Virus record (IMG/VR): IMGVR_UViG_3300032309_000931
Location: 29,876 to 93,875 of that record
Reading direction: 5' to 3' (one strand)
Source: a virus
DNA: 64,000 nucleotides
The notes under the pieces are model-generated. The model saw nothing but the letters and a program-made list of their open reading frames with translations. It did no database searches and was not told the DNA's origin. Below are positions 28,373 to 55,804 of the stretch, piece by piece (the first letter of the stretch is position 1; every line of letters starts with the position of its first letter). The position numbers and the translations under genes were made by a program.

Positions 28373-28394
28373 TGTCGGTGGTCGATGTTACACT
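28373..28394 (+). promoter_or_regulatory. TGTC-type promoter 1
   Basis: TGTCGGTGGTC, 5 nt (GATGT), TACACT. Followed by a ~120-nt leader and the first zinc microprotein. Confidence 0.7.
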
Positions 28395-28427
28395 AAATAT
28401 ATAAACAAACAGAGAAACCAAAGAGAG

Positions 28428-28482
28428 TGAGCCTCTCAGAGCAAATAAGACCCAAAGGGTATGAGCCTCTCAGAGCAAATAA
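28428..28482 (+). repeat. Tandem leader repeat TGAGCCTCTCAGAGCAAATAA
   Basis: Two copies of a 21-base unit (28428-28448 and 28462-28482) in the leader of the first microprotein operon; a third, slightly altered copy is at 30510-30531 and a partial one near 27418. The unit contains a short self-complementary core. Each copy overlaps a GTG or ATG that opens a very short frame, so a leader peptide is possible. Confidence 0.55.
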
Positions 28483-28513
28483 ATCTCAAGGTTTCAGATA
28501 AGGATAGAAAATA

Positions 28514-28624
28514 ATGAATGAATTTCACGGAAATTGCCAAAAGTGTGGCACTTGGAATCGAATTGCGTTTGTAGGTTCGATGTCCCTTAGCCAATTGCTT
28601 TGCAAGGCTTGCCGTAACAAGTAA
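28514..28624 (+). CDS. Zinc microprotein Z1
   Basis: 36 residues, MNEFHGNCQKCGTWNRIAFV then two further Cys: C8-x2-C11 and C30-x2-C33 form a zinc ribbon. A near-identical paralogue follows 0.2 kb downstream, which supports it being real. Unknown function; such ribbons usually bind nucleic acid or host proteins. Confidence 0.7.
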   Translation: MNEFHGNCQKCGTWNRIAFVGSMSLSQLLCKACRNK

Positions 28625-28645
28625 GCCCCATAGCTTGTGCATAAG

Positions 28646-28654
28646 TTATCCACA
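28646..28654 (+). promoter_or_regulatory. DnaA box (TTATCCACA)
   Basis: Perfect 9-base consensus, followed by GGCGGCGCACC. In the gap between Z1 and its paralogue. Confidence 0.7.
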
Positions 28655-28770
28655 GGCGGCGCACCACCATATCTAGTAACATACTGACATTTACGTACTA
28701 CATATAGATTCCCCTGAATTATAACAAAATGGTAACATAGCGTAACAATAGGGCATATCGATTAGTTATA

Positions 28771-28792
28771 TGTCGGTGGTCTGTGTTAGGCT
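28771..28792 (+). promoter_or_regulatory. TGTC-type promoter 2
   Basis: TGTCGGTGGTC, 5 nt (TGTGT), TAGGCT. The weakest -10 of the family but with a perfect upstream block. Confidence 0.65.
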
Positions 28793-28816
28793 GTAGACAT
28801 AAAGAAAGGAAATGAA

Positions 28817-28939
28817 ATGAACGAATTTCACGGTAACTGCCAGAACTGTAAGGTCTGGACAAAGGTAGCCTTCAATGGCTCAATGGGTCTGAGTGAGTTG
28901 CTCTGCTCGCTCTGCCGTATGACACAGGCTACCAAGTAG
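28817..28939 (+). CDS. Zinc microprotein Z2
   Basis: 40 residues, MNEFHGNCQNCKVWTKVAFN, same Cys spacing as Z1 (C8, C11, C30, C33). Tandem duplicate with its own promoter. The start is chosen by similarity to Z1; an ATGAAATGA start-stop triplet pair overlaps the true start. Confidence 0.7.
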   Translation: MNEFHGNCQNCKVWTKVAFNGSMGLSELLCSLCRMTQATK

Positions 28940-28944
28940 TTTCG

Positions 28945-28966
28945 TGTCGTACCTCTAGGCTATACT
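28945..28966 (+). promoter_or_regulatory. TGTC-type promoter, degenerate copy
   Basis: TGTCGTACCTC, 5 nt (TAGGC), TATACT. Good -10 and correct spacing, weaker upstream block. Confidence 0.55.
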
Positions 28967-28991
28967 GATAACAACAAGTAAGGACAAACAA

Positions 28992-29171
28992 ATGGAAATC
29001 GAAAACGAAATCGACATCAACGAAGTTGAGGACATCAACATCAACACTCTCACGCCTAAGCAAATGGCACTACGCCTAAACGCTCTCGTTCGTTTGGCTC
29101 AGGGTGAAACATTCACTACCCACGATTTTGAGGAAGCCCTAACGCTCACTCGCAAACTGGCTAAGCGATAG
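28992..29171 (+). CDS. Hypothetical acidic helical protein
   Basis: 59 residues; acidic Ile/Asn/Glu-rich start (EIENEIDINEVEDINI), then amphipathic helices (KQMALRLNALVRLAQGETFT). Ribosome site AAGGACAAACAA. First gene of a three-gene operon. Not recognised. Confidence 0.65.
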   Translation: MEIENEIDINEVEDININTLTPKQMALRLNALVRLAQGETFTTHDFEEALTLTRKLAKR

Positions 29172-29179
29172 GGGAACCA

Positions 29180-29269
29180 ATGCTAGTCTCAAACATCGCC
29201 ACAGTAATTTGTGTGCTACTAATCGGATACCTAATAATCTACATCGCTCAGGAGATAAGCAATGACTAA
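29180..29269 (+). CDS. 29-residue membrane microprotein
   Basis: One membrane segment (IATVICVLLIGYLIIYIAQE). Overlaps the next gene by 8 bases, which supports translational coupling. Confidence 0.5.
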   Translation: MLVSNIATVICVLLIGYLIIYIAQEISND

Positions 29270-29351
29270 ATGTAAAGAGTGTAAGCGTAACCTAACTGTA
29301 ATAATCGAAAACTATCCTGATTTGTGTTGGTCGTGTGTGATGGAACAGTAG
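29262..29351 (+). CDS. 29-residue zinc-ribbon microprotein
   Basis: MTKCKECKRNLTVIIENYPD followed by LCWSC: C4-x2-C7 and C22-x2-C25. Too small for an enzyme; a zinc-dependent binding peptide is plausible. Confidence 0.55.
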   Translation: MTKCKECKRNLTVIIENYPDLCWSCVMEQ

Positions 29352-29361
29352 GCGGATCGAC

Positions 29362-29413
29362 TTATCCACAGCCCCCGAAAAGTTATCCACAGGGGGGCGC
29401 AAACTTATCCACA
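29362..29413 (+). promoter_or_regulatory. Cluster of three DnaA boxes
   Basis: Perfect TTATCCACA at 29362-29370, 29383-29391 and 29405-29413, same orientation, spaced 21-22 nt, i.e. two helical turns apart. Confidence 0.75.
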
Positions 29414-29472
29414 GCCTGTTAGTAACTTAGTTACGAATTGTTACGAACTTTCCCTAAAATTCCCTAGTTTTA

Positions 29473-29494
29473 TGTCGGTGGTCAATGATAAAAT
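29473..29494 (+). promoter_or_regulatory. TGTC-type promoter 3
   Basis: TGTCGGTGGTC, 5 nt (AATGA), TAAAAT. Confidence 0.68.
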
Positions 29495-29520
29495 GTAAAC
29501 ATACAAGCAAAGGACAAAAA

Positions 29521-29637
29521 ATGAACTGGTATCAAGTACTCGTAGAGTATGATGAAATGATTGGCACAATCTATGTTGCGGCAGATGAATTGGAAGCATT
29601 CAAGGCAAAGTATAAAGTGCTAAGCGTAATCATCTAG
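29521..29637 (+). CDS. Hypothetical 38-residue protein
   Basis: MNWYQVLVEYDEMIGTIYVA..., reads as strand-helix-strand. Similar in style to other DUF-like peptides in this block that begin with a Tyr/Val strand then (A)DELEAF. Ribosome site AAAGGAC. Confidence 0.62.
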   Translation: MNWYQVLVEYDEMIGTIYVAADELEAFKAKYKVLSVII

Positions 29638-29644
29638 GGTTTCG

Positions 29645-29666
29645 TGTCGGTGGTCGCTGGTATACT
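29645..29666 (+). promoter_or_regulatory. TGTC-type promoter 4
   Basis: TGTCGGTGGTC, 5 nt (GCTGG), TATACT. Confidence 0.72.
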
Positions 29667-29693
29667 AATAACATAAACAAGAAAAGGACAATA

Positions 29694-29834
29694 ATGACAA
29701 AGAGTCGATACACAACCGTACTGGTGGAAATGCCAGACAAGATTTTTTTCCAAGCAATCCACATCTATGATTGGGCTAAGGAAATCGAATACTTGAAATC
29801 TCAGGGTGCTACTTCTATCACTATAGCCAAGTAG
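29694..29834 (+). CDS. Hypothetical 46-residue protein
   Basis: Strand-helix-strand plan (TTVLVEMPDKIFFQAIHIYD, then YLKSQGATSITIAK). The protein encoded just before it has the same plan, so both may be one microprotein family. The stop codon abuts a DnaA box. Confidence 0.62.
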   Translation: MTKSRYTTVLVEMPDKIFFQAIHIYDWAKEIEYLKSQGATSITIAK

Positions 29835-29907
29835 TTATCCACAGGGGTATCGAATGAGCCTGTAGTTATCCACAGCAAATAAGTCGATACCCCCAAAGTT
29901 ATCCACA
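29835..29907 (+). promoter_or_regulatory. Cluster of three DnaA boxes
   Basis: Perfect TTATCCACA at 29835-29843, 29866-29874 and 29899-29907, all same orientation, spaced 31 and 33 nt (about three helical turns). Confidence 0.75.
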
Positions 29908-29918
29908 GGCTGCGCCCC

Positions 29919-29940
29919 ACGCAAGTTTATTGCGTCTTTA
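29919..29940 (+). terminator. Hairpin ACGCAA/TTGCGT
   Basis: Six-base stem, GTTTA loop, then CTTTATG; follows TGCGCCCC. Same type as the hairpin at 28291. Confidence 0.5.
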
Positions 29941-29978
29941 TGAAGATAGTTGCGTTTTCCCTGAATTGGGGGGTTTTA

Positions 29979-30000
29979 TGTCGGTGGTCGGCTGTATACT
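29979..30000 (+). promoter_or_regulatory. TGTC-type promoter 5
   Basis: TGTCGGTGGTC, 5 nt (GGCTG), TATACT. Confidence 0.72.
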
Positions 30001-30026
30001 GATAACATAGACAGAAAAGGACAACT

Positions 30027-30206
30027 ATGACAAATCAACTCCCAGAAAACAAGGCAACTGCCGAACAGTATGAAACTCTCAAATCGCTTATCACAAAGCG
30101 TTACCCTGACGCAGACCTGCTTCACATCTACGCTTCACTCTCAGGCGTACTTTCAGTAGGCGTATCTGAAGAGGCTATGGCACGACTTATCGAACTACAC
30201 CAGTAG
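30027..30206 (+). CDS. Hypothetical 59-residue helical protein
   Basis: MTNQLPENKATAEQYETLKS..., helices with a central YPDADLLHIYASLSG. No family recognised. Single-gene operon between two TGTC promoters; ribosome site AAAAGGACAACT. Confidence 0.65.
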   Translation: MTNQLPENKATAEQYETLKSLITKRYPDADLLHIYASLSGVLSVGVSEEAMARLIELHQ

Positions 30207-30211
30207 TTTCG

Positions 30212-30233
30212 TGTCGGTGCTCACCAGTATAAT
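30212..30233 (+). promoter_or_regulatory. TGTC-type promoter 6
   Basis: TGTCGGTGCTC, 5 nt (ACCAG), TATAAT. Confidence 0.72.
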
Positions 30234-30258
30234 TGTAATACAAGCAGAAAAGGAAAAA

Positions 30259-30492
30259 ATGGAACAACTAATCGGAACAAACGTAAAAACACACAACCAC
30301 GCTTATCTTGGTGAGGTTCGCAACGTGTCTAGACTGTTTGTAAAGCCTATCTATCGTCACCTGAGAGGCATTGAGGCTAACGAGCCTTATGTTGCCTACG
30401 CTGTCGAAATCGAAGGCTCGGACAGTCCTAAAGGCTGGACAACGCTTATCGCTCGTGATGAAGCAGACATCCTGAAGCGTTACGCAGTCTAA
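30259..30492 (+). CDS. Hypothetical 77-residue protein
   Basis: Start at 30259 (MEQLIGTNVKTHNHAYLGEV), chosen because it follows AAAAGGA; a longer frame from 30211 would include the promoter. Beta-rich sequence with a small-barrel look (VKTHNHAYLGEVRNV...YVAYAVEIEGSD). Unknown. Confidence 0.65.
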   Translation: MEQLIGTNVKTHNHAYLGEVRNVSRLFVKPIYRHLRGIEANEPYVAYAVEIEGSDSPKGWTTLIARDEADILKRYAV

Positions 30493-30589
30493 TCCGTAAG
30501 GGGAGAGAGTGAGCCTCGCAAGAGCAAATAAATCTCTCCCCAAACAGGATACATTCCAAAATGGGAATGTGTGTCAATCTCAAAAAAAT

Positions 30590-30596
30590 GCGCCCC
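30590..30596 (+). other. GCGCCCC intergenic motif (one of nine plus-strand copies)
   Basis: Exact copies also at 28283, 29912, 31683, 33011, 34123, 35603, 36952 and 38180, and inverted near 29394, 30989 and 41363. Found only in intergenic gaps of the microprotein block, soon after stop codons. Confidence 0.55.
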
Positions 30597-30655
30597 CCCC
30601 CACCCCTAGCCTTAATTACGAATTAAGAAAACAAATCCCAGATTCCCGAATTAGA

Positions 30656-30677
30656 TGTCGGTGGTCAATGTTATACT
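30656..30677 (+). promoter_or_regulatory. TGTC-type promoter 7
   Basis: TGTCGGTGGTC, 5 nt (AATGT), TATACT. Confidence 0.72.
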
Positions 30678-30704
30678 GTATACATAACGAAAGGACATAA
30701 GCAA

Positions 30705-30971
30705 ATGGCTTACTCAAACACTCACGCAGATTTCTACCAGACGGCTATGGGGACTATGGTCACAGAGCCTCAGTCGGCTTGGGATACCTCTACTCACTGT
30801 GCAGACTGTGGCGTTCAGTACGCTTACTGTGGCTGCCCCAACGAGGACATTGACGAGCCTGTTGATGGCTTTGCTGTCTGTGCTGTCTGCGACTATACCG
30901 TTCGTGGACTATTCTATCTCAATGGGGATTCAACTGGTCGCTGTGCTGGATGCCATAACTCTATTCGATAG
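30705..30971 (+). CDS. Double zinc-finger protein
   Basis: 88 residues with many paired cysteines: HCADCGVQYAYCGCP in the middle, then AVCAVCDYTVRGL and RCAGCHNSI near the end. Two zinc sites are likely. N-terminus AYSNTHADFYQTAMGTMV. Unknown function; possible nucleic-acid or host-factor binding. Confidence 0.7.
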   Translation: MAYSNTHADFYQTAMGTMVTEPQSAWDTSTHCADCGVQYAYCGCPNEDIDEPVDGFAVCAVCDYTVRGLFYLNGDSTGRCAGCHNSIR

Positions 30972-30974
30972 GAG

Positions 30975-30983
30975 TTATCCACA
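30975..30983 (+). promoter_or_regulatory. DnaA box (TTATCCACA)
   Basis: Perfect consensus 3 nt after the stop codon of the zinc-finger gene. Confidence 0.7.
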
Positions 30984-31058
30984 GGCTGGGGCGCAGCTTT
31001 TGATCCTAGACATAATTACGTAAGCATTAAAAATACCCTGGAAATTTCCCTAGTTTTA

Positions 31059-31080
31059 TGTCGGTGCTCAGATGTATAAT
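31059..31080 (+). promoter_or_regulatory. TGTC-type promoter 8
   Basis: TGTCGGTGCTC, 5 nt (AGATG), TATAAT. Confidence 0.72.
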
Positions 31081-31111
31081 TATATTATCAACCAAACAAA
31101 GGACAAAGTAA

Positions 31112-31662
31112 TGACTACTCTCACCGCTAACGAAATTCACACCGCAACTGCTACAGATTTGTACCGTGACCTGATTGTTCGTGCTACTCTTGGACAGGTC
31201 GAACAGGCTAGTGTCTGGTATCACGAAGCACAAGAAGTTGCCCAAGAGGTTGCTCGTAATCTGGACACAACGCTAGAGGTTGGTGCTAGTGTCGTATCTG
31301 CGTTTTCTCCTCGTGAGCGTTGGGCAAGCAACATCGAAAAGGCTGTGGCGTTCTCACTTGGACACACGCCTAAAGGATTGGGCAACAACCTCAAAATGGC
31401 ACAGTCCTCGCTGACTGCTGGATTCTATGCCCTCAAGGGTCTCAAGACTAATGCGTTTGCTCGTGCCATTGCTGGAGATACTGACGCTGTTGTGATTGAC
31501 ATTTGGATGATGAGAGCGGCAGGTATGGAAACTGATAGCCCAACTCAAGGACAGTATTTCGCACTCTCACTTGCTTGCCGTAATGTCGCTAAAGAATTTG
31601 GGCTTACTCCTCGCACCGCACAGGCTCTGATTTGGATTCTCGTGAGAGGCTCAGCAATCTAA
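31112..31662 (+). CDS. Conserved actinophage protein with HhH-glycosylase-like features
   Basis: 183 residues from the ATG at 31112 (AAAGGACAAAGTA upstream). Contains VVSAFSPRERWASNIEKAVA, then GLKTNAFARAIAGDTDAVVI followed by DIWMMRAAG, and a C-terminal GLTPRTAQALIWILVRG. The K-x-x-x-F-x-R-x-(I/L)-AGD-x-(D/A)-AVx-(I/V)-D pattern recalls the helix-hairpin-helix DNA glycosylase fold and similar proteins are common in actinobacterial phages. Enzymatic activity is not shown by the sequence; DNA binding is a reasonable inference. Confidence 0.72.
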
Positions 31663-31689
31663 GGGCTACCCCGAAAGGGGTTGCGCCCC

Positions 31690-31706
31690 ACGCAGCTTTC
31701 TTGCGT
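31690..31706 (+). terminator. Hairpin ACGCA/TGCGT
   Basis: Third member of the ACGCA-x-TGCGT hairpin group, directly after the GCGCCCC motif; weak without U-tract. Confidence 0.4.
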
Positions 31707-31750
31707 AATTACGAACAATTTTTGTTTTTCCCTAAATTTGGGTAGTTATG

Positions 31751-31772
31751 TGTCGGTGCTCTGATGTATACT
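31751..31772 (+). promoter_or_regulatory. TGTC-type promoter 9 (leaderless geometry)
   Basis: TGTCGGTGCTC, 5 nt (TGATG), TATACT, then AATACT and ATG. The start codon lies 6 nt after the -10, so the mRNA would have no leader. Confidence 0.72.
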
Positions 31773-31778
31773 AATACT

Positions 31779-31943
31779 ATGAAGAAAAAGAACCCAACTC
31801 ACAAAGGTATTGAGAACAAGCCCTACATTGAGGCTATGCGTGAATTGCGTAGGTCTAACGCAGCCACTACCCACGACAACCGCCCTAACCGTTTGCGTAC
31901 TCGCAAAGCAATCAAAACCCAAGCAATCAAGGAGAACGAATAA
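31779..31943 (+). CDS. Basic 54-residue protein
   Basis: Very basic (KKKNPTHKGIENKPYIEAMR, then LRRSN...RTRKAIKTQAIK), suggesting nucleic-acid or ribosome binding. No ribosome site; predicted leaderless. Coupled by TAATG overlap to the next gene. Confidence 0.65.
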   Translation: MKKKNPTHKGIENKPYIEAMRELRRSNAATTHDNRPNRLRTRKAIKTQAIKENE

Positions 31944-32110
31944 TGGAATGTGAATTCTGCACTAATGAAAAACTGGCTACCGTTTCGGTTATGCACCTGC
32001 GTGACCGTATCGAACAAGCCGCCTGTGGCAAGTGTGCCAACGACCTATCTGATGAAAAGTGGGTAGTCACTCACGAATTCGACACATCTATCTGGGATTT
32101 TGCAGGGTAG
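31943..32110 (+). CDS. CxxC zinc microprotein
   Basis: 55 residues: MECEFCTNEK near the start and CGKCANDLSD in the middle give two CxxC pairs separated by a helix (HLRDRIEQAA). Ends WDFAG. Common plan in actinobacterial phages; role unknown. Confidence 0.68.
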   Translation: MECEFCTNEKLATVSVMHLRDRIEQAACGKCANDLSDEKWVVTHEFDTSIWDFAG

Positions 32111-32115
32111 TTATG

Positions 32116-32137
32116 TGTCGGTGGTCTAGGTTATAAT
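32116..32137 (+). promoter_or_regulatory. TGTC-type promoter 10
   Basis: TGTCGGTGGTC, 5 nt (TAGGT), TATAAT. Confidence 0.72.
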
Positions 32138-32165
32138 AGTAATACGAACAAAGAAAAGGACAGAA

Positions 32166-32339
32166 ATGAAAAAGTACAACTTCACTGGTTTCGCATTCGG
32201 TAGTAACGGAGAAATGGTTTTCCGTATTGAGGTTCTGAACCACACCGAAAACGGAACAAATGTTTCCACCCAAATCGATTTGGAACTCACACCAGAGGAA
32301 CGAACCGAACTCATCACCCAACTTATCTCAATCAAGTAG
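32166..32339 (+). CDS. Hypothetical 57-residue protein
   Basis: Beta strands (YNFTGFAFGSNGEMVFRIEV) then a helix (TPEERTELITQLISIK). Single-gene operon. Not recognised. Ribosome site AAAAGGACAGAA. Confidence 0.62.
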   Translation: MKKYNFTGFAFGSNGEMVFRIEVLNHTENGTNVSTQIDLELTPEERTELITQLISIK

Positions 32340-32344
32340 TTTGG

Positions 32345-32366
32345 TGTCGGTGCTTCACGCTATAAT
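32345..32366 (+). promoter_or_regulatory. TGTC-type promoter 11
   Basis: TGTCGGTGCTT, 5 nt (CACGC), TATAAT. First promoter of a four-gene operon. Confidence 0.7.
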
Positions 32367-32390
32367 AGAACTACGAACAAAGGACAATAA

Positions 32391-32570
32391 ATGAAAGACA
32401 CAATCAACCGTTCAGGTGAGGTAATCGAAAATCTCACAATCGCACAGGGTGACCGCCGTTATGCTTACGCATTTGCGTTTGGATTTGCGTGGTCTTTGCT
32501 CTCGGAAAAGAACCGTAAAGAGTTGCTGAAAATCTCAGAACGAAAAGCACAAGAAAAGGACAACGACTAA
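32391..32570 (+). CDS. Hypothetical 59-residue protein
   Basis: Helical, with an aromatic hydrophobic stretch (YAYAFAFGFAWSLL) that could touch a membrane, and a charged C-terminus (SERKAQEKDND). Coupled to the next gene through TAATG. Confidence 0.62.
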   Translation: MKDTINRSGEVIENLTIAQGDRRYAYAFAFGFAWSLLSEKNRKELLKISERKAQEKDND

Positions 32571-32767
32571 TGACAAAGTATCCAGAAATCGAAGTACAAC
32601 TTACAGGACAAGACGGCAACGCATTCGCAATTATGGGTGCGGTATCTCGTGAACTCCGCAAGGCTGGGGTATCCAAAGAGGAAATCAACGAATACACTAC
32701 GCAATCTATGTCTGGCGACTATGACAACCTTTTGCGTACTGCTATGGCTTGGGTGAGTGTATCCTAA
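32570..32767 (+). CDS. Hypothetical 65-residue protein of a common actinophage type
   Basis: EVQLTGQDGNAFAIMGAVSR then ELRKAGVSKEEINEYTTQSM: the pattern strand, GxDGNAFxI(M/L)G, helix, (S/T)GDYDNLL is a small conserved phage family of unknown function. Overlaps both neighbours by a base. Confidence 0.72.
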   Translation: MTKYPEIEVQLTGQDGNAFAIMGAVSRELRKAGVSKEEINEYTTQSMSGDYDNLLRTAMAWVSVS

Positions 32768-32946
32768 TGATGACACGCAAAGACTATGTAGCCGTTTCAG
32801 AATTGCTGAACACCTACGCTCTCAAAATAGATGAGCAAACATTCGACCTACTCATTCACGACTTTGCTGGACTGATGGCAAAGGACAATGAGCGTTTCAT
32901 CGCTGACCGTTTCATCTCCGCTTGCTGGAATGGCGAGAATGCTTGA
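32767..32946 (+). CDS. Hypothetical 59-residue protein
   Basis: Start at the ATG overlapping the previous stop (MMTRKDYVAVSELLNTYALK). The core RKDYVAVSELLN...LIHDFAGLMAKDNERFIADRF (residues ~3-50) is a family of short helical phage proteins: DFA-x-x-(F/M)-x-x-DN-x-x-F-x-x-x-(R/K)F. Unknown function. Confidence 0.72.
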   Translation: MMTRKDYVAVSELLNTYALKIDEQTFDLLIHDFAGLMAKDNERFIADRFISACWNGENA

Positions 32947-33004
32947 GATTATTGTTATCACGCTGGGGGTATTGGCAGTACTCCTGGCGTGGTTCAATGA
33001 CTAA
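32939..33004 (+). CDS. 21-residue membrane microprotein
   Basis: MLEIIVITLGVLAVLLAWFN: one hydrophobic span, overlapping the upstream gene by 8 bases. Short but consistent with similar membrane microproteins in this block. Confidence 0.4.
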   Translation: MLEIIVITLGVLAVLLAWFND

Positions 33005-33078
33005 AATTTTGCGCCCCCCTGCCCTCACAAACCTATTACTAACCTTACGATCTTTTTCCCGAAATTCACAGAGTTTGA

Positions 33079-33100
33079 TGTCGGTGGTACTTGGTATAAT
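33079..33100 (+). promoter_or_regulatory. TGTC-type promoter 12
   Basis: TGTCGGTGGTA, 5 nt (CTTGG), TATAAT. Confidence 0.72.
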
Positions 33101-33123
33101 AGAAACATAACGAAAGGACACTA

Positions 33124-33429
33124 ATGAACGACGGAACATACCTCAACCTTGACGGAAAGTTTATTCTCTCTCACGCCAAGTCTGGCTATTGGGTAGCCGT
33201 TCACAAGTACGACAGCCTTGACGACACTATTTCAGGGGATTACGTAGGCGTGTGGACAAATCCCGAAACTGGCGTTATGTACCTTGACCGTAGCGTTTGG
33301 GTGTCTGACTTGGACAACGCTATCGCTCTGGGTAAGTCACAAGGACAATTGGCTATCTGGGACTGTGCCAATGAAACAGAAATCTGGCTCAACGAATACT
33401 TTGCCGATGTATTCAAAGACGAAGTTTGA
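33124..33429 (+). CDS. Hypothetical 101-residue protein
   Basis: Beta-rich (YLNLDGKFILSHAKSGYWVA, then DYVGVWTNPETGVMYLDRSV) with a C-terminal helix (ALGKSQGQLAIWDCANETE). No family recognised. Stop codon overlaps the next promoter block. Confidence 0.65.
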   Translation: MNDGTYLNLDGKFILSHAKSGYWVAVHKYDSLDDTISGDYVGVWTNPETGVMYLDRSVWVSDLDNAIALGKSQGQLAIWDCANETEIWLNEYFADVFKDEV

Positions 33430-33451
33430 TGTCGGTACTCCCCTGTATAAT
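33430..33451 (+). promoter_or_regulatory. TGTC-type promoter 13 (leaderless geometry)
   Basis: TGTCGGTACTC, 5 nt (CCCTG), TATAAT, then TAGACT and ATG (6 nt). The TGTC block begins inside the stop codon of the gene before. Confidence 0.7.
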
Positions 33452-33457
33452 TAGACT

Positions 33458-33568
33458 ATGAACGAACAATTTATCGAATGCCCCCAATGTGGCGACACAG
33501 TAATCGAATCCGATATGCGTGAGGTAGGCGTATGTTGGGAATGTGACTATCTACCAGAGGAGAAATAA
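33458..33568 (+). CDS. 36-residue zinc-ribbon microprotein
   Basis: MNEQFIECPQCGDTVIESDM then VCWECDY: C8-x2-C11 and C26-x2-C29. Predicted leaderless. Coupled to the next gene by the stop/start spacing. Confidence 0.65.
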   Translation: MNEQFIECPQCGDTVIESDMREVGVCWECDYLPEEK

Positions 33569-33847
33569 ATGGGAAGAATGTTTGTAGAGAGTATCAAGGA
33601 ACTTGGCGATATCGAATTAGAGGATATGGTGAGTATGCACTTCAGTAGCAATTGCTACCCCCCAATTCCACAGTTTATGGTGCAGTCAGCGGTAGCCGCT
33701 ATCAACGCTTGCAACTATGGTGACTACAATGAGGTAATCCAATTGCCACACGGAGTCACTTACAGGGGTAGTGAGTTTGTTGATGCAGCCACCTATGTCG
33801 AAGCACACCGCCTTGAGGGATTCGTAGAATGGGAGTATGAGGACTAA
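33569..33847 (+). CDS. Hypothetical 92-residue protein
   Basis: Helical, with MVSMHFSSNCYPPIPQFMVQ, SAVAAINACNYGDYNEVIQL and a C-terminal acidic part. The (L/I)PxGV-x-YRG segment (LPHGVTYRGSEFVDA) recalls other phage hypothetical proteins with a conserved NxYPP(I/V) core. Function unknown. Confidence 0.72.
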   Translation: MGRMFVESIKELGDIELEDMVSMHFSSNCYPPIPQFMVQSAVAAINACNYGDYNEVIQLPHGVTYRGSEFVDAATYVEAHRLEGFVEWEYED

Positions 33848-33936
33848 TGGACTGGGAAAACGTAATTGACTGGAAAGTTGTTGACAGGTTGACAGACGAA
33901 CAGGTATCCGCTATACTGGATATGTTCGACAAGTAA
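33847..33936 (+). CDS. 29-residue microprotein
   Basis: MDWENVIDWKVVDRLTDEQV..., a single amphipathic helix, TAATG-coupled to the gene before. Its coding sequence also holds TTGACA, 17 nt, TATACT, so it may double as a promoter for the next gene. Confidence 0.45.
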   Translation: MDWENVIDWKVVDRLTDEQVSAILDMFDK

Positions 33937-33943
33937 GGATAAA

Positions 33944-34117
33944 ATGACTGACTATATACTCAAATATCAGGTATGGAATGGACACGAGGACGGTAAGTTG
34001 GCAACGTTCCGTCACTTGGAACAGGCACAACTGTTTGTCGATAGCGTGAGAGCATTCTATCCCAAGGTATTTGTTTATGATGTTTTGACTGGACAACGAT
34101 TGGTGAGTGCAGACTAG
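33944..34117 (+). CDS. Hypothetical 57-residue protein
   Basis: TDYILKYQVWNGHEDGKLAT, then FRHLEQAQLFVDSVRAFYPK and VFVYDVLTGQRL. Strand-helix-strand plan seen in phage DUF-type peptides. Followed by the GCGCCCC motif 5 nt after the stop. Confidence 0.65.
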   Translation: MTDYILKYQVWNGHEDGKLATFRHLEQAQLFVDSVRAFYPKVFVYDVLTGQRLVSAD

Positions 34118-34188
34118 GAGCTGCGCCCCCCTCGTTACCAAACATCTATTAAGAATTACGAATAATTATCCAGATTCCCAGAGTTATA

Positions 34189-34210
34189 TGTCGGTGGTCA
34201 GGGGTATACT
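34189..34210 (+). promoter_or_regulatory. TGTC-type promoter 14
   Basis: TGTCGGTGGTC, 5 nt (AGGGG), TATACT. Confidence 0.72.
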
Positions 34211-34238
34211 TATAAGACAGACAAGAAAAGGACACACA

Positions 34239-34640
34239 ATGGGACAATACCACAGCATTTACAACCTTGACAAGCAAGAGGTTATTCACCCACACGACAT
34301 TGGTCTTGGGGCAAAGCAGCGTGAACACACAGGTCACACTGCCTCACTGTCAGATATGATGTATATCCTGACAACCTGCTCACCTATGCGTGGCGGAGGG
34401 GATTTCGTAGCAGAGGTTATGAAGGACTTCATTGGGCGTTGGGCAGGTGACCGTTGCGTAGTTATTGGTGACTATGCTGAACCTAGTGACTTGCCAGATG
34501 TGGATTTCTCTACCCTCAAAGATTTCACAGATATTTCTGGAGAAGCACGAGCCTTTATCTTTGAGGTATATGGTATCCATTTCCGAACGGTTGACTATGG
34601 TTTGGAAAGAGTTTACCCTGAGAATTCAGACAGAGTTTGA
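34239..34640 (+). CDS. Conserved phage protein of unknown function
   Basis: 133 residues from the ATG at 34239. MGQYHSIYNLDKQEVIHPHD, IGLGAKQREHTG and DRCVVIGDYAEPSDLPDVDF are hallmark segments of a family common in actinobacterial phages. The conserved His/Asp residues and GDYA could form a binding site, but no reaction is known to me. The longer frame starting at 34107 is ignored since it covers the promoter. Confidence 0.75.
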   Translation: MGQYHSIYNLDKQEVIHPHDIGLGAKQREHTGHTASLSDMMYILTTCSPMRGGGDFVAEVMKDFIGRWAGDRCVVIGDYAEPSDLPDVDFSTLKDFTDISGEARAFIFEVYGIHFRTVDYGLERVYPENSDRV

Positions 34641-34662
34641 TGTCCGTGGTAGACGGTATAAT
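34641..34662 (+). promoter_or_regulatory. TGTC-type promoter 15
   Basis: TGTCCGTGGTA, 5 nt (GACGG), TATAAT. One core base differs. Confidence 0.68.
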
Positions 34663-34689
34663 TGTAGTAACAACAACGAGAGGACAACT

Positions 34690-34950
34690 ATGTTAGACAA
34701 AGCATTTGCTCTAAAGAAAGTAACCGAAGACATAACTACAGACCCAATGGTTATGTACGCTGGCTTTCTTGTAATGCAAGCAGAAACCGAAGACGAGCGT
34801 AACTCTGCTCTGAACAACTTTGGACAAACAATCACAGGACTTATGGCATTTGCTATGTCGGAACTCCTGCTGTCGGAAGAGGACTTCACCGCCCTCACCG
34901 AAACAATTGGGGAACTTATCGAAATTGGTGAAATTGGAGAAGAGGACTAA
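34690..34950 (+). CDS. Hypothetical 86-residue acidic helical protein
   Basis: MLDKAFALKKVTEDITTDPM, then GFLVMQAETEDERNSALNNF and a strongly acidic end (GELIEIGEIGEED). All-helical. Start chosen by AGAGGACAACT. First gene of a three-gene operon. Not recognised. Confidence 0.65.
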   Translation: MLDKAFALKKVTEDITTDPMVMYAGFLVMQAETEDERNSALNNFGQTITGLMAFAMSELLLSEEDFTALTETIGELIEIGEIGEED

Positions 34951-35093
34951 TGTCTGAAATTATAATTAGGCTTGACACCGCTCACGCAGAGACCCTCATT
35001 GGGTTTCTTGGAGAGTTCTTGGATGGAGAGTTCGCTGAGGAAGAGTGCTTCATCAACTTGTACAACAAACTAGTAAGGGAGATGAACTACTAA
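34950..35093 (+). CDS. Hypothetical 47-residue protein
   Basis: MSEIIIRLDTAHAETLIGFL..., one strand then two amphipathic helices (GEFAEEECFINLYNKLVREM). TAATG coupling on both sides makes it real with good likelihood. Confidence 0.62.
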   Translation: MSEIIIRLDTAHAETLIGFLGEFLDGEFAEEECFINLYNKLVREMNY

Positions 35094-35491
35094 TGGAAAA
35101 CCAGCACCCAGTACTTTCACAACTCAATCAAGAAGTCTCAGACCTGAAGCAGCAGGTGGAGTTCCTTCGAAGTGAACGTGACCGTCTTTTGGCTAACTAC
35201 TCACAGGACGTAGAGAACACTCGTGCAATTCTTATCGAAGCAATTGTCGACGGAACAGACGTTAGGACGTTGGCAAACTCTATCGCTGATGTGTTTGCTA
35301 TCTCGCTCCTCAAGTCAGTCACAGTATCAATGGTGATGAATGTTGAAGCGACAATGGTGGTTCCTGCTGACTACGACATTAGCAACCTTGAAATTGGGGA
35401 TGTTCAGGTTCATTGCTACAACTCAGATGTTGAAGACTTTAGCGTTGAATCATTTGACATCATTGACATCGAAGAGGCTAAGTATACATAA
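35093..35491 (+). CDS. Hypothetical 132-residue protein with N-terminal coiled coil
   Basis: Residues ~10-40 form a coiled coil (LNQEVSDLKQQVEFLRSERD). The C-terminal half is a beta-type domain (SVTVSMVMNVEATMVVPADY, then DISNLEIGDVQVHCYNSDVE). Similar two-part proteins occur in actinophage early regions; function unknown. Confidence 0.7.
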   Translation: MENQHPVLSQLNQEVSDLKQQVEFLRSERDRLLANYSQDVENTRAILIEAIVDGTDVRTLANSIADVFAISLLKSVTVSMVMNVEATMVVPADYDISNLEIGDVQVHCYNSDVEDFSVESFDIIDIEEAKYT

Positions 35492-35668
35492 TAGCTAGGT
35501 TCCCACTGTGGTATTCTTGTCCTTTCCTGCAGTGGTGATAGGTCCTGGATATGACCTTTATAAACTGTCCTTTCTTAGTACCCTGCCGAGATCGGTGGAC
35601 CTGCGCCCCCCTGCCCCAGCAAACAAGTTACGAACTGTTACAAAAATCCCCTGATTTGATTTGTTTTA
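35492..35668 (+). other. Intergenic region with small hairpins
   Basis: No gene. Contains CCACTG...CAGTGG and AGGTC...GACCT inverted repeats, two copies of TGTCCTTTCYT, then the GCGCCCC motif and two GTTACRAA-like sites before the promoter. Confidence 0.4.
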
Positions 35669-35690
35669 TGTCGGTGGTCATTGGTATACT
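35669..35690 (+). promoter_or_regulatory. TGTC-type promoter 16
   Basis: TGTCGGTGGTC, 5 nt (ATTGG), TATACT. Confidence 0.72.
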
Positions 35691-35708
35691 TGTATTACAG
35701 GCAGGGAG

Positions 35709-35837
35709 ATGAAGTCGGAAGTCCCCACAAAAAAAATAAAAAAGTTTGAGAATAGACTTGACAAACTCTCTCCCAGCCTGTATAATAGTAATAACGAAGC
35801 AAACAAAACAGTTGGCTCACTACAAGGAAGCAGGTAA
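35709..35837 (+). CDS. Possible 42-residue basic peptide
   Basis: MKSEVPTKKIKKFENRLDKL, lysine-rich. GGGAG lies too close to the ATG for a good ribosome site, and a strong promoter is embedded in the frame. It could instead be an untranslated leader. Confidence 0.3.
   Translation: MKSEVPTKKIKKFENRLDKLSPSLYNSNNEANKTVGSLQGSR
35758..35786 (+). promoter_or_regulatory. Consensus sigma-70-type promoter
   Basis: TTGACA, 17 nt, TATAAT: perfect hexamers and spacing, no TGTC block. Drives the gene starting at 35843. Confidence 0.8.
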
Positions 35838-35842
35838 CACAA

Positions 35843-35989
35843 ATGGGAGAAATCCAAATCGGTTCACAGTTCACCACGCAGAAGTCAGGCGTTGTCGGAA
35901 CGGTTCAGGAAATCGTCAAGAACGCAAACGGCACAAGCCGTGTTCGCCTCACCGTCAATGGTGCAGACCGCTGGACTACCGTAAAGTAG
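35843..35989 (+). CDS. Small beta-barrel-like protein
   Basis: 48 residues: MGEIQIGSQFTTQKSGVVGT, VQEIVKNANGTSRVRLTVNG, RWTTVK. The G-x-x-F-x-T-x-x-(S/T)GVxGxVxEI plan is that of short SH3-like barrel proteins found in actinobacterial phages. Expressed from a consensus promoter, so probably abundant. Confidence 0.7.
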   Translation: MGEIQIGSQFTTQKSGVVGTVQEIVKNANGTSRVRLTVNGADRWTTVK

Positions 35990-36066
35990 TCTAGTTTGGG
36001 GAGGTAGGAGGAACGGCTCTGAATACCTAGTAGACTACCTCCCCCACTTACAACTCAATAGTTTCG

Positions 36067-36088
36067 TGTCAGACCCCAATGATACAAT
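36067..36088 (+). promoter_or_regulatory. TGTC-type promoter 17 (degenerate)
   Basis: TGTCAGACCCC, 5 nt (AATGA), TACAAT. Spacing kept, upstream block degraded. Confidence 0.5.
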
Positions 36089-36120
36089 GGATACATAAGC
36101 CAATAGAAAGGACTAAACCA

Positions 36121-36576
36121 ATGGCTCGTTCACTCTCCGTGAAAATCCCAACCGCAACTCTTATCGCTGATGTTGAGGCAACTATTGCCAAGATTGAGGC
36201 AGAGATGGCTACATACCCTGCCGATATGGAAGCATACCGCAAGGCAAGCAAGGCACACCAAGACTTGGTTCTCAAAGCAGTTATTGAGGCAATCAAGAAC
36301 CCTGACAACATTGGTGACACCTATGACCAGAACGCTCTTGTTCGTGTCAGTAGCAACCGCTATGGTCGTAACGGCGTTAGCATTGAGGTAAACACCGATT
36401 TGCTCAACCTGCCTAGCGAACCTGAATGTCCAACTAACCCTAACGAGAAAACTCACTATGGGCGTGAATACACCACCAAGTTGGACTTGCTCAAGAAAAA
36501 CCTCAAGGTTCTCAAAATGACTAACCAAGAGGAAGTCAATGCCTCCACTTACAATACTGTAATGGAACTTCTCTAA
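36121..36576 (+). CDS. Coiled-coil phage protein
   Basis: 151 residues from the ATG at 36121. N-terminal SLSVKIPTATLIADVEATIA, KIEAEMATYPADMEAYRKAS is helical; C-terminal LDLLKKNLKVLKMTNQEEVN is a second coil. Between them lies a short beta part (ALVRVSSNRYGRNGVSIEVN). Proteins with this order are common in actinophages; role unknown. Confidence 0.72.
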   Translation: MARSLSVKIPTATLIADVEATIAKIEAEMATYPADMEAYRKASKAHQDLVLKAVIEAIKNPDNIGDTYDQNALVRVSSNRYGRNGVSIEVNTDLLNLPSEPECPTNPNEKTHYGREYTTKLDLLKKNLKVLKMTNQEEVNASTYNTVMELL

Positions 36577-36706
36577 CGAGAAATGTGCTGGGTATCACTA
36601 GAAACTGCCTCCTGAATTGGGGTAGCGACTAGACAGGTAAAATAATTTCGCTCTAACCTGAGTATGTGGTTAAACTGCTCACCCTATAACTACACAGAGA
36701 AACATT

Positions 36707-36778
36707 GGCTTCATAGTGAAAAGGTTATCACACTACCCTGTCGAGGTAGAAGTTAGGGTTCGAGTCCCTATGAGGTCG
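36707..36778 (+). tRNA. tRNA-Asp (anticodon GTC)
   Basis: Full cloverleaf: acceptor GGCTTCA/TGAGGTC (with G-U pairs), D-arm GTGA/TCAC, anticodon stem CTACC/GGTAG with loop CTGTCGA, T-arm TAGGG/CCCTA with TTCGAGT. No encoded CCA. The only tRNA on the plus strand. Confidence 0.9.
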
Positions 36779-36788
36779 CTTCCCTTGA

Positions 36789-36863
36789 AATAGAGGGTGA
36801 GTTGCTAGTTGCAGATGATACTAGATAGGTTAGAGATACTAGGGTGAGATGATGTCCTCTATT
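36789..36863 (+). ncRNA. Possible structured RNA next to tRNA-Asp
   Basis: AATAGAGG (36789-36796) pairs with CCTCTATT (36856-36863), closing a ~60-nt interior that contains GATACTAG twice. A strong terminator follows, so a tRNA plus RNA transcript ending at ~36934 is plausible. No coding frame is seen here. Confidence 0.35.
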
Positions 36864-36886
36864 CCGAAGTAAACTTTCACACACTA

Positions 36887-36934
36887 ATCCCCTGCGAAGC
36901 GTCTGGATAGATTGCTGGTAGCAGGGGATTTTTG
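36887..36934 (+). terminator. Intrinsic terminator after the tRNA-Asp region
   Basis: ATCCCCTGC pairs with GCAGGGGAT (25-nt loop) and is followed by TTTTTGTTTT. Confidence 0.8.
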
Positions 36935-37028
36935 TTTTGGGGAATCGAGCTGCGCCCCGACTTTGTTAGAACATACTTATTACGGATTGGTTACGAAAGC
37001 CCCAAAAATGTTCCCGAAACTTGTTTTA

Positions 37029-37050
37029 TGTCGGTGGTCAGGAGTATAAT
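37029..37050 (+). promoter_or_regulatory. TGTC-type promoter 18
   Basis: TGTCGGTGGTC, 5 nt (AGGAG), TATAAT: one of the best copies. Confidence 0.75.
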
Positions 37051-37080
37051 AGAACTAACAACGAAAAAGAAAGGTATGAA

Positions 37081-38103
37081 ATGGCTCACGAATTAGAAAT
37101 CGGTGCTAACGGCGAGGTTGCTTTTGCTTCCTTGCGTGAACCTGCTTGGCACAAGTTGGGTACTGTCTTTGAAGACGAGGTATCAACTTCAGAAATGCTC
37201 AAGTTGGCTCACTTGGACAACTGGAATGTTCGCCTTGAGGAATTGACTTTCCCTGAAGGCTATGTCTCAGACAAGACAAACTACTTTGTTTGTCGCACTA
37301 ACCCATTCGACAAGACACAGAATGATGTGCTTGGCGTTGTGGGTGAACGCTATCACACTATGCAGAACGAGGACTTGTTCACCTTTGGTGACAACCTGCT
37401 TGACGGTGGTGGCAAGTGGGAAACCGCTGGCTCAATCAAGGGTGGGCGTGTAGTCTTTGGCTCTCTCGCTCTTGACAACGAAATGGTGCTTGACCCCAAT
37501 GGTCGTGCTGACAAGGTAGACAGTTACCTCCTTATCAACACCAGTCACGATGGCTCTATCTCCATTATGGCTTCGATTACCCCTGTGCGAGTTGTGTGTG
37601 CAAACACTCTCAACCTTGCTCTTGGTGGTGGCGTAGGCAAGTGGCGTAATGTCAAGCAGTCGTTCAAAATTCGTCACACTCAGACGGCAGAGGGCAAGGT
37701 TCAAGTTGCTCGTGAAGCACTTGGTTTGGCTCAGACTTACCTTGACGAGTTCTCCGTTATGGCTAACGCTATGATTGAGACTGAGGTTACTAAGTCAGAG
37801 TTTGACCAGATTGTTGCTCTTGCTTACCCTGCCCCTGAGAAAGACGCTAAGGGTTCGTTCAAGAAGCACAACGACAAGATTGAACTCATCAACGACATCT
37901 ATGTTGGTGACTACAACAACACGATTGCTGGTACTGCTTGGGGTACGCTCAACGCTCTCACAGAACGCCTTGACTGGTATCGCTCTGCTCGTGGTGGCAA
38001 CAACGAAAGTATCCTTGCTGGTGCTAGTGGACTTGACCCTGCTCTCAATGCAGAAAAGAACCGCTTGGCTCGTATTGTCGCAAGCGTAATGCTGGGAGTG
38101 TAA
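37081..38103 (+). CDS. DUF932 phage/plasmid-like protein
   Basis: 340 residues from the ATG at 37081. Hallmarks of the DUF932/TIGR03299 family: REPAWHKLGTVFEDEVSTSE near the start, NPFDKTQNDVLGVVGERYH, SLLINTSHDGS-like segment (YLLINTSHDGSISIMASITP), VRVVCANTLNLALGG and KIRHTQTAEGKVQ-AREAL. The family is widespread on phages and plasmids and has no firmly known activity; a role in DNA metabolism or anti-host defence is often supposed. The largest gene of the microprotein block. Confidence 0.9.
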   Translation: MAHELEIGANGEVAFASLREPAWHKLGTVFEDEVSTSEMLKLAHLDNWNVRLEELTFPEGYVSDKTNYFVCRTNPFDKTQNDVLGVVGERYHTMQNEDLFTFGDNLLDGGGKWETAGSIKGGRVVFGSLALDNEMVLDPNGRADKVDSYLLINTSHDGSISIMASITPVRVVCANTLNLALGGGVGKWRNVKQSFKIRHTQTAEGKVQVAREALGLAQTYLDEFSVMANAMIETEVTKSEFDQIVALAYPAPEKDAKGSFKKHNDKIELINDIYVGDYNNTIAGTAWGTLNALTERLDWYRSARGGNNESILAGASGLDPALNAEKNRLARIVASVMLGV

Positions 38104-38276
38104 TCCCTAACTGCTAGGCAACAGTCTAAACTGCCTCCCCTTTGGGGGATCGACTGGGGATAAGTTATGCACAGGAGCTGCGCCCCAAAAATTCTAACAT
38201 AGATAACTAATCATAAAAAAACAATTACGAACCTCGTAAAAAATCTCCCGAATTCCTCTTGTTATATGTCGGTGGT
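38104..38276 (+). other. Intergenic module
   Basis: Contains a CCCC-TTT-GGGG hairpin, a DnaA-like box (TTATGCACA, 38165-38173), GCGCCCC, a TTACGAA motif and an A/T tract before the promoter. No gene. Confidence 0.45.
38165..38173 (+). promoter_or_regulatory. DnaA-like box (TTATGCACA)
   Basis: Fits the relaxed consensus TTWTNCACA with one change from TTATCCACA. Confidence 0.5.
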
Positions 38277-40863: not shown

Positions 40864-41067
40864 ATGATGAGAAAAGTAGTAACCAACGAGGAGAAAGTGG
40901 CAAAGCGATTATCAGATTCGATTTCAGACTTGCGTTTGGACTTGGAAATGATTTCACTTTACCTTTCACAGATTTCACCAAATGTAACAATCAACCGTAT
41001 TCTGCTTATGGCAGAGTTTCTAAAAGAAGAAAAAGAGGGAACACAAAATGACTACGACTACCTTTGA
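40864..41067 (+). CDS. Hypothetical 67-residue helical protein
   Basis: MMRKVVTNEEKVAKRLSDSI then a coiled coil (SDLRLDLEMISLYLSQISPN). Similar helical proteins occur in actinophages; function not known. Overlaps the next gene. Confidence 0.65.
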   Translation: MMRKVVTNEEKVAKRLSDSISDLRLDLEMISLYLSQISPNVTINRILLMAEFLKEEKEGTQNDYDYL

Positions 41068-41323
41068 GAACAAGTGCGTTATCCTGTCTGACCTTTGGCT
41101 GAACTATCGCTATGACAAAGAGTTTGCCGACTTTATCGAATACAATGATATGGGCTTGCCACTTGCCTACACCTTGTCTGAGGGAATTGTCAATGGTACA
41201 GATATGTCTACCAAGTTTATTGACGAGACTTTTGACCTTTTGCTTAGTGGTCTAGAGATTGAGGACACAGGCTTTGAGAGTCTAGACGAGTTGTTGTCTA
41301 CTGGTGGTAGTCTACAAGAATAA
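41048..41323 (+). CDS. Hypothetical 91-residue acidic protein
   Basis: MTTTTFENKCVILSDLWLNY then RYDKEFADFIEYNDMGLPLA, YTLSEGIVNGTDMSTKFIDE. The FxxFxEYNDxGLPLAYxLxxG(I/L) segment marks a conserved family of small phage proteins. Its stop codon touches the DnaA-box region. Confidence 0.75.
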   Translation: MTTTTFENKCVILSDLWLNYRYDKEFADFIEYNDMGLPLAYTLSEGIVNGTDMSTKFIDETFDLLLSGLEIEDTGFESLDELLSTGGSLQE

Positions 41324-41364
41324 TTATCCACAGGGGGGTAGCTCTATCCACAGAGTTATCCCCA
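41324..41364 (+). promoter_or_regulatory. DnaA box group, left side of origin candidate
   Basis: TTATCCACA (perfect), CTATCCACA and TTATCCCCA (one mismatch each). Confidence 0.65.
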
Positions 41365-41517
41365 GGTGGGCGCACTTTGTTATAACATACTAACAAACAT
41401 ACCATTTACGAACAGGCATTAAGAACTCCCAAATATATTTCCCAAATTTTACAGACATTACGAGGGACTTCAAAAAATCGCTGAAAGTTTGGAGGGTATC
41501 AGATGATGTCCTATTCT

Positions 41518-41786
41518 CCCTATATATAATACATATACCTATAGACATTACGATCTTATGTTTGATACCCCCGAAATGTGGATATGTCTAATAGGATTGT
41601 TTGGTATAGATATTTGGGGGCAGCTAAGTATAAGCATTTCCCCCTATATAACTATAAACAAATACATTACGAACCCTTGATTATTTTTCCCAGATTTGTG
41701 GATATTTCTGATATAAAATAGGATGTTTTGACATATTTATACACAATATATAGGGATTTTTGGGCATAATTATACTATATATAGGG
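41518..41786. repeat. CCCTATATA / TATATAGGG repeats in the A/T-rich tract
   Basis: Four of five units lie here (41518, 41642, 41747, 41778); two face each way. The fifth is at 42090. Confidence 0.6.
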
Positions 41787-41948
41787 GTTGACAAATGGGA
41801 TATTTTGTGGTAGATAGGAGGTTTGGATGTGGGGACACTATATGTTGTGGTTGGGATTACGATCCGCTACGATATGTGGGCTCTATATCTCAAACAACTT
41901 TCCAAACATCCTCTTTCAGTCAGATAATATCCATATCAGTAAGATGAT

Positions 41949-41969
41949 TGTGGATAACTCTGTGGATAA
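41949..41969 (-). promoter_or_regulatory. Two adjacent DnaA boxes, minus orientation
   Basis: TTATCCACA on the minus strand at 41949-41957 and 41961-41969, 12 nt apart. Confidence 0.7.
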
Positions 41970-42108
41970 ATGTGTCCAAATCAGCCGCAGGATACGTTCT
42001 AAGGAGCTATATCCTCTGATGTCAAACAGGTGTGTATGCTCAAAACCATCTAGTCATATAGGTGATTATAGATACTATAGGTTATAGGTTATATAGGGAA
42101 TGGGGCTA

Positions 42109-55519: not shown

Positions 55520-55804
55520 CTAATCGTTTGTTAGATTTTTCCAGGTCTCAGCCCAGTCAGCCTTTGACCTATGCCTATTAAATTCTCGTGAGATCTTACC
55601 ATTTTCAAGATATACACCGCCCCAGACTCCCCAACCTTTTTGTGAGACTCCAGTAGCAAAGCATAACCTGGCAACAGGACAACCTGCACAAAGATTATCT
55701 ATCCCTACTCTGAGATCAAGATCTTCTTCGTACTTGTCAAAGAATAGGTTTGTGTCGTATCCATCACAACGTGCTTTAGATTTCCAGTTTTCACTTTGCA
55801 TCAT
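55520..55804 (-). CDS. WhiB-family iron-sulfur regulator
   Basis: 94 residues with start at 55804 (an earlier in-frame ATG at 55840 is possible). Four cysteines are in WhiB order: ARCDGY, then LCAGCPVARLC (C-x2-C-x5-C), followed by the G(V/I)WGG turn (GVWGGVYLENGK) and a basic tail (REFNRHRSK). They bind a [4Fe-4S] cluster and modulate transcription with SigA. WhiB proteins are essentially restricted to actinobacteria and their phages, so this is the best host clue. Confidence 0.9.
   Translation of the reverse strand: MMQSENWKSKARCDGYDTNLFFDKYEEDLDLRVGIDNLCAGCPVARLCFATGVSQKGWGVWGGVYLENGKISREFNRHRSKADWAETWKNLTND

Follow-up and report, generated by a model that had tools for sequence, protein, structure and literature searches.

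A composite non-coding element of Stanwilliamsviridae-like actinophages joins a genome-end-like junction to DnaA double boxes and may start replication

A conserved non-coding strip and its DnaA boxes

The window analysed here is a stretch of 64,000 nucleotides, which runs from base 29876 to base 93875 of a virus record 93,875 bp long (IMGVR_UViG_3300032309_000931). The first 260 bases of the record repeat at its end (window 63740-64000) with 95% identity, which suggests that the record is probably closed circularly, with strain variation. The initial annotation had described a strip between two sets of genes as a non-coding, AT-rich, probable replication origin at a strand switch. The strip, its borders and one further gene used below are as follows.

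41048-41323, plus strand: gene for a 91-aa protein with no Pfam family, the left-border marker in relatives
41324-42108, no strand: the whole conserved non-coding strip, between convergent genes
41682-41781, no strand: least stable 100 bp of the strip, a candidate unwinding segment
42109-42675, minus strand: GNAT acetyltransferase gene, the right border in close relatives only
55613-55786, minus strand: WhiB-family gene

Gene direction does change at the strip, as had been described. However, the plus-strand genes of the left operon stop at 41323 and the minus-strand genes stop at 42109, which makes the junction convergent rather than the divergent switch expected of an origin and accounts for a local skew maximum. 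Cumulative GC skew, which had been proposed as a check on the origin, showed this local maximum and no minimum at the strip. Because raw cumulative skew tracks gene direction, we discarded it as a global test for an origin and regressed third-position skew on gene strand and arm in seven genomes. The strip had a negative GC and a positive AT coefficient in 7/7 genomes, a terminus- or end-like sign that is opposite to a switch in which the leading strand leaves the strip. This effect is weak and confounded by the layout that the genomes share, so that skew is only weak evidence against an origin.

The non-coding status of the strip was borne out by indels and by conservation. Among four close genomes, 80% of columns were invariant in 41400-41800, whereas the flanking genes had 30% and 42% of their third codon positions invariant, which indicates that the strip core is conserved above its coding neighbours. 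The AT-richness is modest overall (63% in the strip versus 59% in the genome), but the segment at 41682-41781, which lies about 170 nt away from the conserved box pair, ranks in the bottom 0.1% of the genome's 100-bp stretches by stability. A BLASTn search of the strip against cultured phages returned no match, an Rfam search of the strip returned none either, and the GNAT protein used as bait retrieved no relatives. A structured non-coding RNA was rejected on an unfavourable covariation term, two-sided change in only 8/170 pairs and the lack of an Rfam match.

The DnaA boxes in and outside the strip, with TTATCCACA as the perfect box, are listed below.

41324-41332, plus strand: perfect DnaA box, immediately past the stop codon of the left gene
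41344-41364, plus strand: imperfect double box CTATCCACA-gag-TTATCCCCA, 12-nt spacing
41577-41585, minus strand: ATATCCACA, likelier to belong to a promoter-like TGTGGATAT..TCTNATA element than to be a DnaA box
41697-41705, minus strand: ATATCCACA, likewise
41737-41745, plus strand: near box TTATACACA, retained in several close relatives, with TTATATACT in others
41949-41969, minus strand: perfect DnaA double box, 12-nt spacing, the conserved pair
28636-30983, all plus strand: second group of eight perfect TTATCCACA boxes, in early-operon intergenic spaces outside the strip

Each sequence reported as a box by the initial annotation was recovered, namely three perfect boxes (41324 plus, 41949 minus and 41961 minus), one TTATACACA (41737 plus), two minus-strand ATATCCACA (41577 and 41697) and two further near-matches (41344 plus and 41356 plus). 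The 785 nt of the strip thus hold eight boxes with at most one mismatch (three perfect and five with one mismatch), against a mean of 0.48 in 300 Markov shuffles, and the three perfect boxes compare with 0.017 expected; such an excess over chance is a property of a DnaA-dependent origin. The internal ATATCCACA copies were set aside as DnaA boxes since close relatives do not keep both sites, and they more likely form part of the promoter-like element. A scan of the whole genome confirmed the cluster in the strip but also revealed the larger group of eight perfect boxes, which had been missed. Those boxes lie between tiny early genes, several of them 1-30 nt past a stop codon, and similar AGTTATCCACAGG elements follow the stop codons of different genes in genomes G001, G005 and G011.

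Kinship, conservation and box spacing

Outside the window, the genome encodes Pol III alpha, DnaG, DnaB, RecA, a Cas4-type nuclease and a RuvC-like resolvase. The Pol III alpha, TerL and DUF932 proteins are 53-56% identical to those of Streptomyces phages in the Stanwilliamsviridae, and together with the ThyX and WhiB genes this homology marks a Stanwilliamsviridae-like actinophage. Approximately 400 IMG/VR loci encode relatives of this Pol III alpha. The WhiB gene and the kinship point to a host among the Actinobacteria; ThyX was dropped as a means of host identification, as it matched only in unrelated bacteria. A phage-encoded DnaA was also rejected, there being no match to its C-terminal domain (Bac_DnaA_C). 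The combination of phage-encoded DnaB, DnaG and Pol III alpha with the lack of a DnaA-type C-terminal domain suits the use of host DnaA. Among the subset of phage genes scanned, neither a candidate initiator gene nor a linked rep gene was identified.

The small gene at 41048-41323 marks the same position in relatives, which allowed us to examine 76 of them, each with at least 1 kb of sequence downstream of this marker. A perfect box occurred within 2.5 kb downstream in 48/76 relatives and a pair of boxes spaced by 12 nt in 40/76, while the 2.5 kb upstream contained a perfect box in 0/60; letter-shuffled boxes, which served as the control, gave 2.9 and 0. Perfect boxes were absent from the strip in 28/76 relatives, many of which keep other motifs, and about 15 relatives retain the remaining motifs without boxes beside CAGTAAGA, a motif that adjoins the boxes. 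Four genomes that lack boxes in the strip (G025, G027, G028 and G030) have TTATCCACA at other places in their records, as pairs or small clusters. That relatives with a boxless strip often have pairs elsewhere, like the Loccivirinae described below, suggests that the DnaA module is separable from the end module.

We also examined the spacing of boxes on the same strand in 68 non-redundant relatives, from which near-duplicates had been removed. Spacings of 12 nt (42 cases), 11 nt (6) and 20-22 nt (19) were found and none of 13-19 nt, and the linkers between paired boxes are variable, with many different sequences. In vivo, E. coli DnaA binds mainly to pairs of boxes that are 2 or 3 bp apart (PMC11317965). 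Such a gap equals 11 or 12 nt from start to start, as in the strips. This double-box spacing is the strongest argument that the predicted ligand is DnaA itself. Separately, at least 119 viral contigs (IMG/VR loci L011-L129), which differ greatly in GC content, contain the 21-mer TTATCCACAGAGTTATCCACA, often within longer arrays of 11/12-nt spacing, which raises the possibility that DnaA double boxes are common among phages.

Among nine cultured Stanwilliamsviridae genomes, all of Streptomyces phages, eight contain TTATCCACA at the corresponding region, as clusters or single boxes (Annadreamy, Gilson, TunaTartare, BillNye, Wakanda, Peebs, Bmoc and StarPlatinum, but not Coruscant). The correspondence was established by gene context for Peebs and Annadreamy and by position, sequence and relation to the terminal repeat for the others. 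Box orientation relative to the other parts differs in Peebs. In the Loccivirinae, the box cluster and the terminal repeat lie kilobases apart, which indicates that the two parts are separable. In three Loccivirinae loci (L331:33430-34930, L347 and L350), more than 100 nt of near-identical sequence adjoins the boxes (AGCTCTGTACGCC.TTCTAAGAGCC onward), and another TTATCCACA occurs about 255 nt further on. A host-specific box, TTGTCCACA, was considered for the Streptomyces relatives and rejected, as the element there uses TTATCCACA as well. Taken together, the excess of boxes, the conservation of the strip, the 11/12-nt spacing and the presence of TTATCCACA in cultured relatives make it very likely that host DnaA binds the boxes of the strip.

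TTACGA sites and a genome-end-like module

The remaining motifs of the strip are as follows, where the caret marks a mapped or predicted cut.

41405-41411, plus strand: TTTACGA site
41457-41463, plus strand: ATTACGA site 1
41547-41553, plus strand: ATTACGA site 2
41666-41672, plus strand: ATTACGA site 3
41788-41795, plus strand: conserved TTGACAAA
41856-41862, plus strand: ATTACGA site 4, the opening part of the genome-end-like module
41880-41892, plus strand: genome-end-like GCTC^TATATCTCA, a degenerate form of G[C/T][T/A]C^nATTAC[C/A]CA, with a predicted cut at 41883/41884, 52 nt before CAGTAAGA
41937-41944, plus strand: CAGTAAGA, the most widely retained exact motif adjoining the boxes

The four ATTACGA copies reported by the initial annotation are present, all on the plus strand, and the TTTACGA at 41405 adds a related site. 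Five copies of CCCTATATA are likewise present, in both orientations, and are the only five in the genome, but this 9-mer is not the palindrome that it had been called. Across the 68 strips, ATTACGA is the most abundant motif and is strictly oriented, with 271 copies on the plus strand versus 5 on the minus strand (3.7 expected), and thus forms direct repeats in one orientation, as iterons do. A regular helical spacing of the copies was not found, as spacings scatter from 33 to 205 nt. In the early operon of the window's genome, sixteen promoter-like TGTCGGTG boxes lie at 28373-38267, one ahead of most of the tiny genes, and TTACGA occurs 32-42 nt upstream of 8/16 of them, which suggests that TTACGA is probably bound by a regulator and not by an initiator dedicated to it. 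The TGTGGATAT..TCTNATA elements within the strip similarly sit about 30 nt past ATTACGA. A typical strip has several ATTACGA copies, TTGACAAA, the last ATTACGA, the end-like motif, CAGTAAGA and then, 12-14 nt on, the minus-strand boxes.

The last ATTACGA opens a rigid module, in which it is followed by 28 nt, G[C/T][T/A]C^nATTAC[C/A]CA, 52 nt and CAGTAAGA. The nATTAC[A/C]C motif is exact in 21/48 related strips that have CAGTAAGA, and in 20/21 of these the 52-nt spacing is exact. The motif is degenerate in the window's own genome, yet its distance of 52 nt from CAGTAAGA (41937) is retained. This module resembles the physical ends of cultured relatives, whose mapping by read pile-up and doubled coverage has been described (PMC5764925, PMC7650747). 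In all four long-repeat genomes (Peebs, StarPlatinum, Bmoc and Coruscant), the cut falls inside the equivalent non-coding region and immediately precedes nATTACACAC. Their 11-12 kb terminal repeat thus starts directly ahead of [C/A/T]ATTACACAC, at a distance of about 50-115 nt from the boxes in those genomes that have them. The short repeat of Gilson, TunaTartare and Wakanda starts exactly before nATTACCC, kilobases from the box cluster. At the StarPlatinum end, CTTACGA precedes GCAC^CATTACACAC with a spacing that equals the strip module within 1 nt; it is the only cultured phage in which the ATTACGA spacing of the module was found at an end. GctC.ATtaccCA had already been obtained as the strip consensus when the ends were examined, and the match was therefore not fished for.

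Conservation extends to the opposite border of the terminal repeat, where AGTGCGCCCATA lies about 35 nt inside the end in 9/9 cultured Stanwilliamsviridae genomes. An attempt to locate this border in the window's genome through the conserved TGCGCCC failed, as the motif recurs throughout the early operon. The contig ends of relatives, examined as a sign of physical ends, showed no obvious clustering at the strip. On balance, we slightly favour the prediction that a genome end of the window's phage lies at this strip.

Replication origin, genome end and other readings

Motifs, spacing and synteny are conserved in the strip, and its equivalent coincides with the ends of four long-repeat relatives. 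We propose that it is a composite cis-element of Stanwilliamsviridae-like actinophages, an end-like junction with DnaA double boxes that probably starts replication, an account that we give an even chance as a whole. The TTACGA array, also found upstream of early promoters, would probably be bound by a phage or host regulator, and the rigid module would be a genome end or concatemer junction at which this particular phage may be cut, like the cut sequence of its relatives. Just past the module (65-85 nt here), host DnaA would occupy the double-box array and help to open the easily melted segment, and phage DnaB, DnaG and Pol III alpha would then start replication beside the border of the terminal repeat. 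Such a role would most economically account for the retention of double boxes beside easily melted DNA in phages with their own replisome, although the skew sign points the other way. The original proposal of a probable origin is thus upheld by boxes that are selected with DnaA-type geometry, syntenic in relatives and adjacent to melting DNA. It is weakened by the absence of a skew minimum, the convergent genes, the relatives without perfect boxes, the boxes in other intergenic spaces and the end-like module, which had not been considered. From sequence comparison, we judge the odds that the strip acts as a replication origin to be about even.

An alternative is that the strip serves only as a genome end, a terminase recognition or cut site bordering a long direct terminal repeat, which would cover the early operon (about 28-41.9 kb), while replication starts elsewhere and the boxes are accessory. 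The mapped cuts of four Streptomyces relatives within the equivalent region, the retention of the ATTACGA-28-nATTAC-52-CAGTAAGA module in strips without DnaA boxes and the terminus-like skew sign are consistent with this account, which nevertheless appears unlikely because it leaves the conserved double-box geometry unexplained and the Loccivirinae box cluster stays away from their ends. The boxes in the early operon also bring titration or roadblock roles into consideration. Box-bound DnaA can block RNA polymerase in an orientation-dependent manner, as seen in E. coli work. The boxes might therefore form a sink that titrates host DnaA and weakens host initiation, or a roadblock to converging transcription, with no origin. 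The many boxes in early-operon intergenic spaces, several right after stop codons, are in line with such a function, as is the place of the strip between converging operons with its outer boxes co-oriented with the incoming transcription on each side. We consider it rather improbable, since box orientation relative to transcription is inconsistent in G004, G007 and G015, and titration needs neither a fixed place beside CAGTAAGA nor unstable DNA.

The TTACGA sites raise two further explanations. The array and promoter-like elements could constitute a transcription-regulatory hub that drives a non-coding or antisense RNA, with DnaA as one regulator among others, which would agree with the TTACGA sites ahead of half of the early promoter boxes and with the TGTGGATAT..TCTNATA elements past ATTACGA. 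This possibility is very unlikely given that no suitably oriented gene lies downstream and that a structured RNA has neither covariation support nor an Rfam match. Even less credible is an origin at which a phage initiator recognizes the ATTACGA sites as iterons, with DnaA as an optional helper; the abundance and strict orientation of ATTACGA and its persistence where boxes are missing would fit, but the site also occurs at early promoters, the copies are irregularly spaced and a candidate initiator gene was not identified. A more specific form of the host-DnaA origin, in which firing at the long-repeat border copies the repeat so that both daughter genomes package complete ends, is a speculative proposal that we hold to be improbable; if true, it would represent a DnaA-based answer to the duplication of long terminal repeats.

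The strip resembles bacterial oriC in its TTATCCACA boxes with double-box spacing and adjoining easily melted DNA, but it differs in belonging to a phage with its own replisome and in its convergent genes, adjacent end-like module and lack of a skew minimum. Origins that combine iterons with DnaA boxes are classical in plasmids (P1 oriR, pSC101 and mini-F). These share with the strip short repeats in one orientation, an AT-rich part and DnaA boxes at the edge, whereas the strip has irregular ATTACGA spacing, copies at promoters and no linked rep gene found, in an apparently lytic phage. The strip also resembles the box-cluster regions of Stanwilliamsviridae (Peebs, StarPlatinum, Bmoc, Gilson, Annadreamy and others), which have TTATCCACA boxes, TTACGA sites and nATTAC[A/C]C at the genome end, and which in the long-repeat genera occupy a place equivalent to the strip, although the cluster and the end are separate in Loccivirinae. 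Two papers that describe the long terminal repeats of these Streptomyces phages do not mention DnaA or present such regions as origins (PMC5764925, PMC7650747). Phages T5, SPO1 and those of cluster BE1, which have long direct terminal repeats, carry host-takeover-like early genes beside the end (PMC5764925), as at the predicted end here. The repeats of the relatives measure 11-12 kb, while the long repeat of the window's phage is putative. An AT-rich origin with DnaA boxes was predicted with Ori-Finder for Pseudomonas phage PseuGes_254, which is likewise an AT-rich phage region but, in the part of that report consulted here, a prediction from a single genome with no conservation or spacing analysis (PMC11512268). 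Known actinophage origins include those of mycobacteriophage prophages, which are RepA- or RNA-based in extrachromosomal prophages, with DnaA unmentioned (PMC7157519). In the open-access papers searched, no account was found of DnaA double boxes that are conserved where a terminal repeat borders the rest of the genome.

Because the element also occurs in cultured Streptomyces phages, the idea of replication started by host DnaA is testable at the bench. The coincidence of DnaA boxes with a mapped 11-12 kb repeat border provides a handle on how long repeats arise. If host DnaA starts replication at this element, then these actinophages, which encode their own helicase, primase and polymerase, would nonetheless hang on a cell-cycle regulator of their host.
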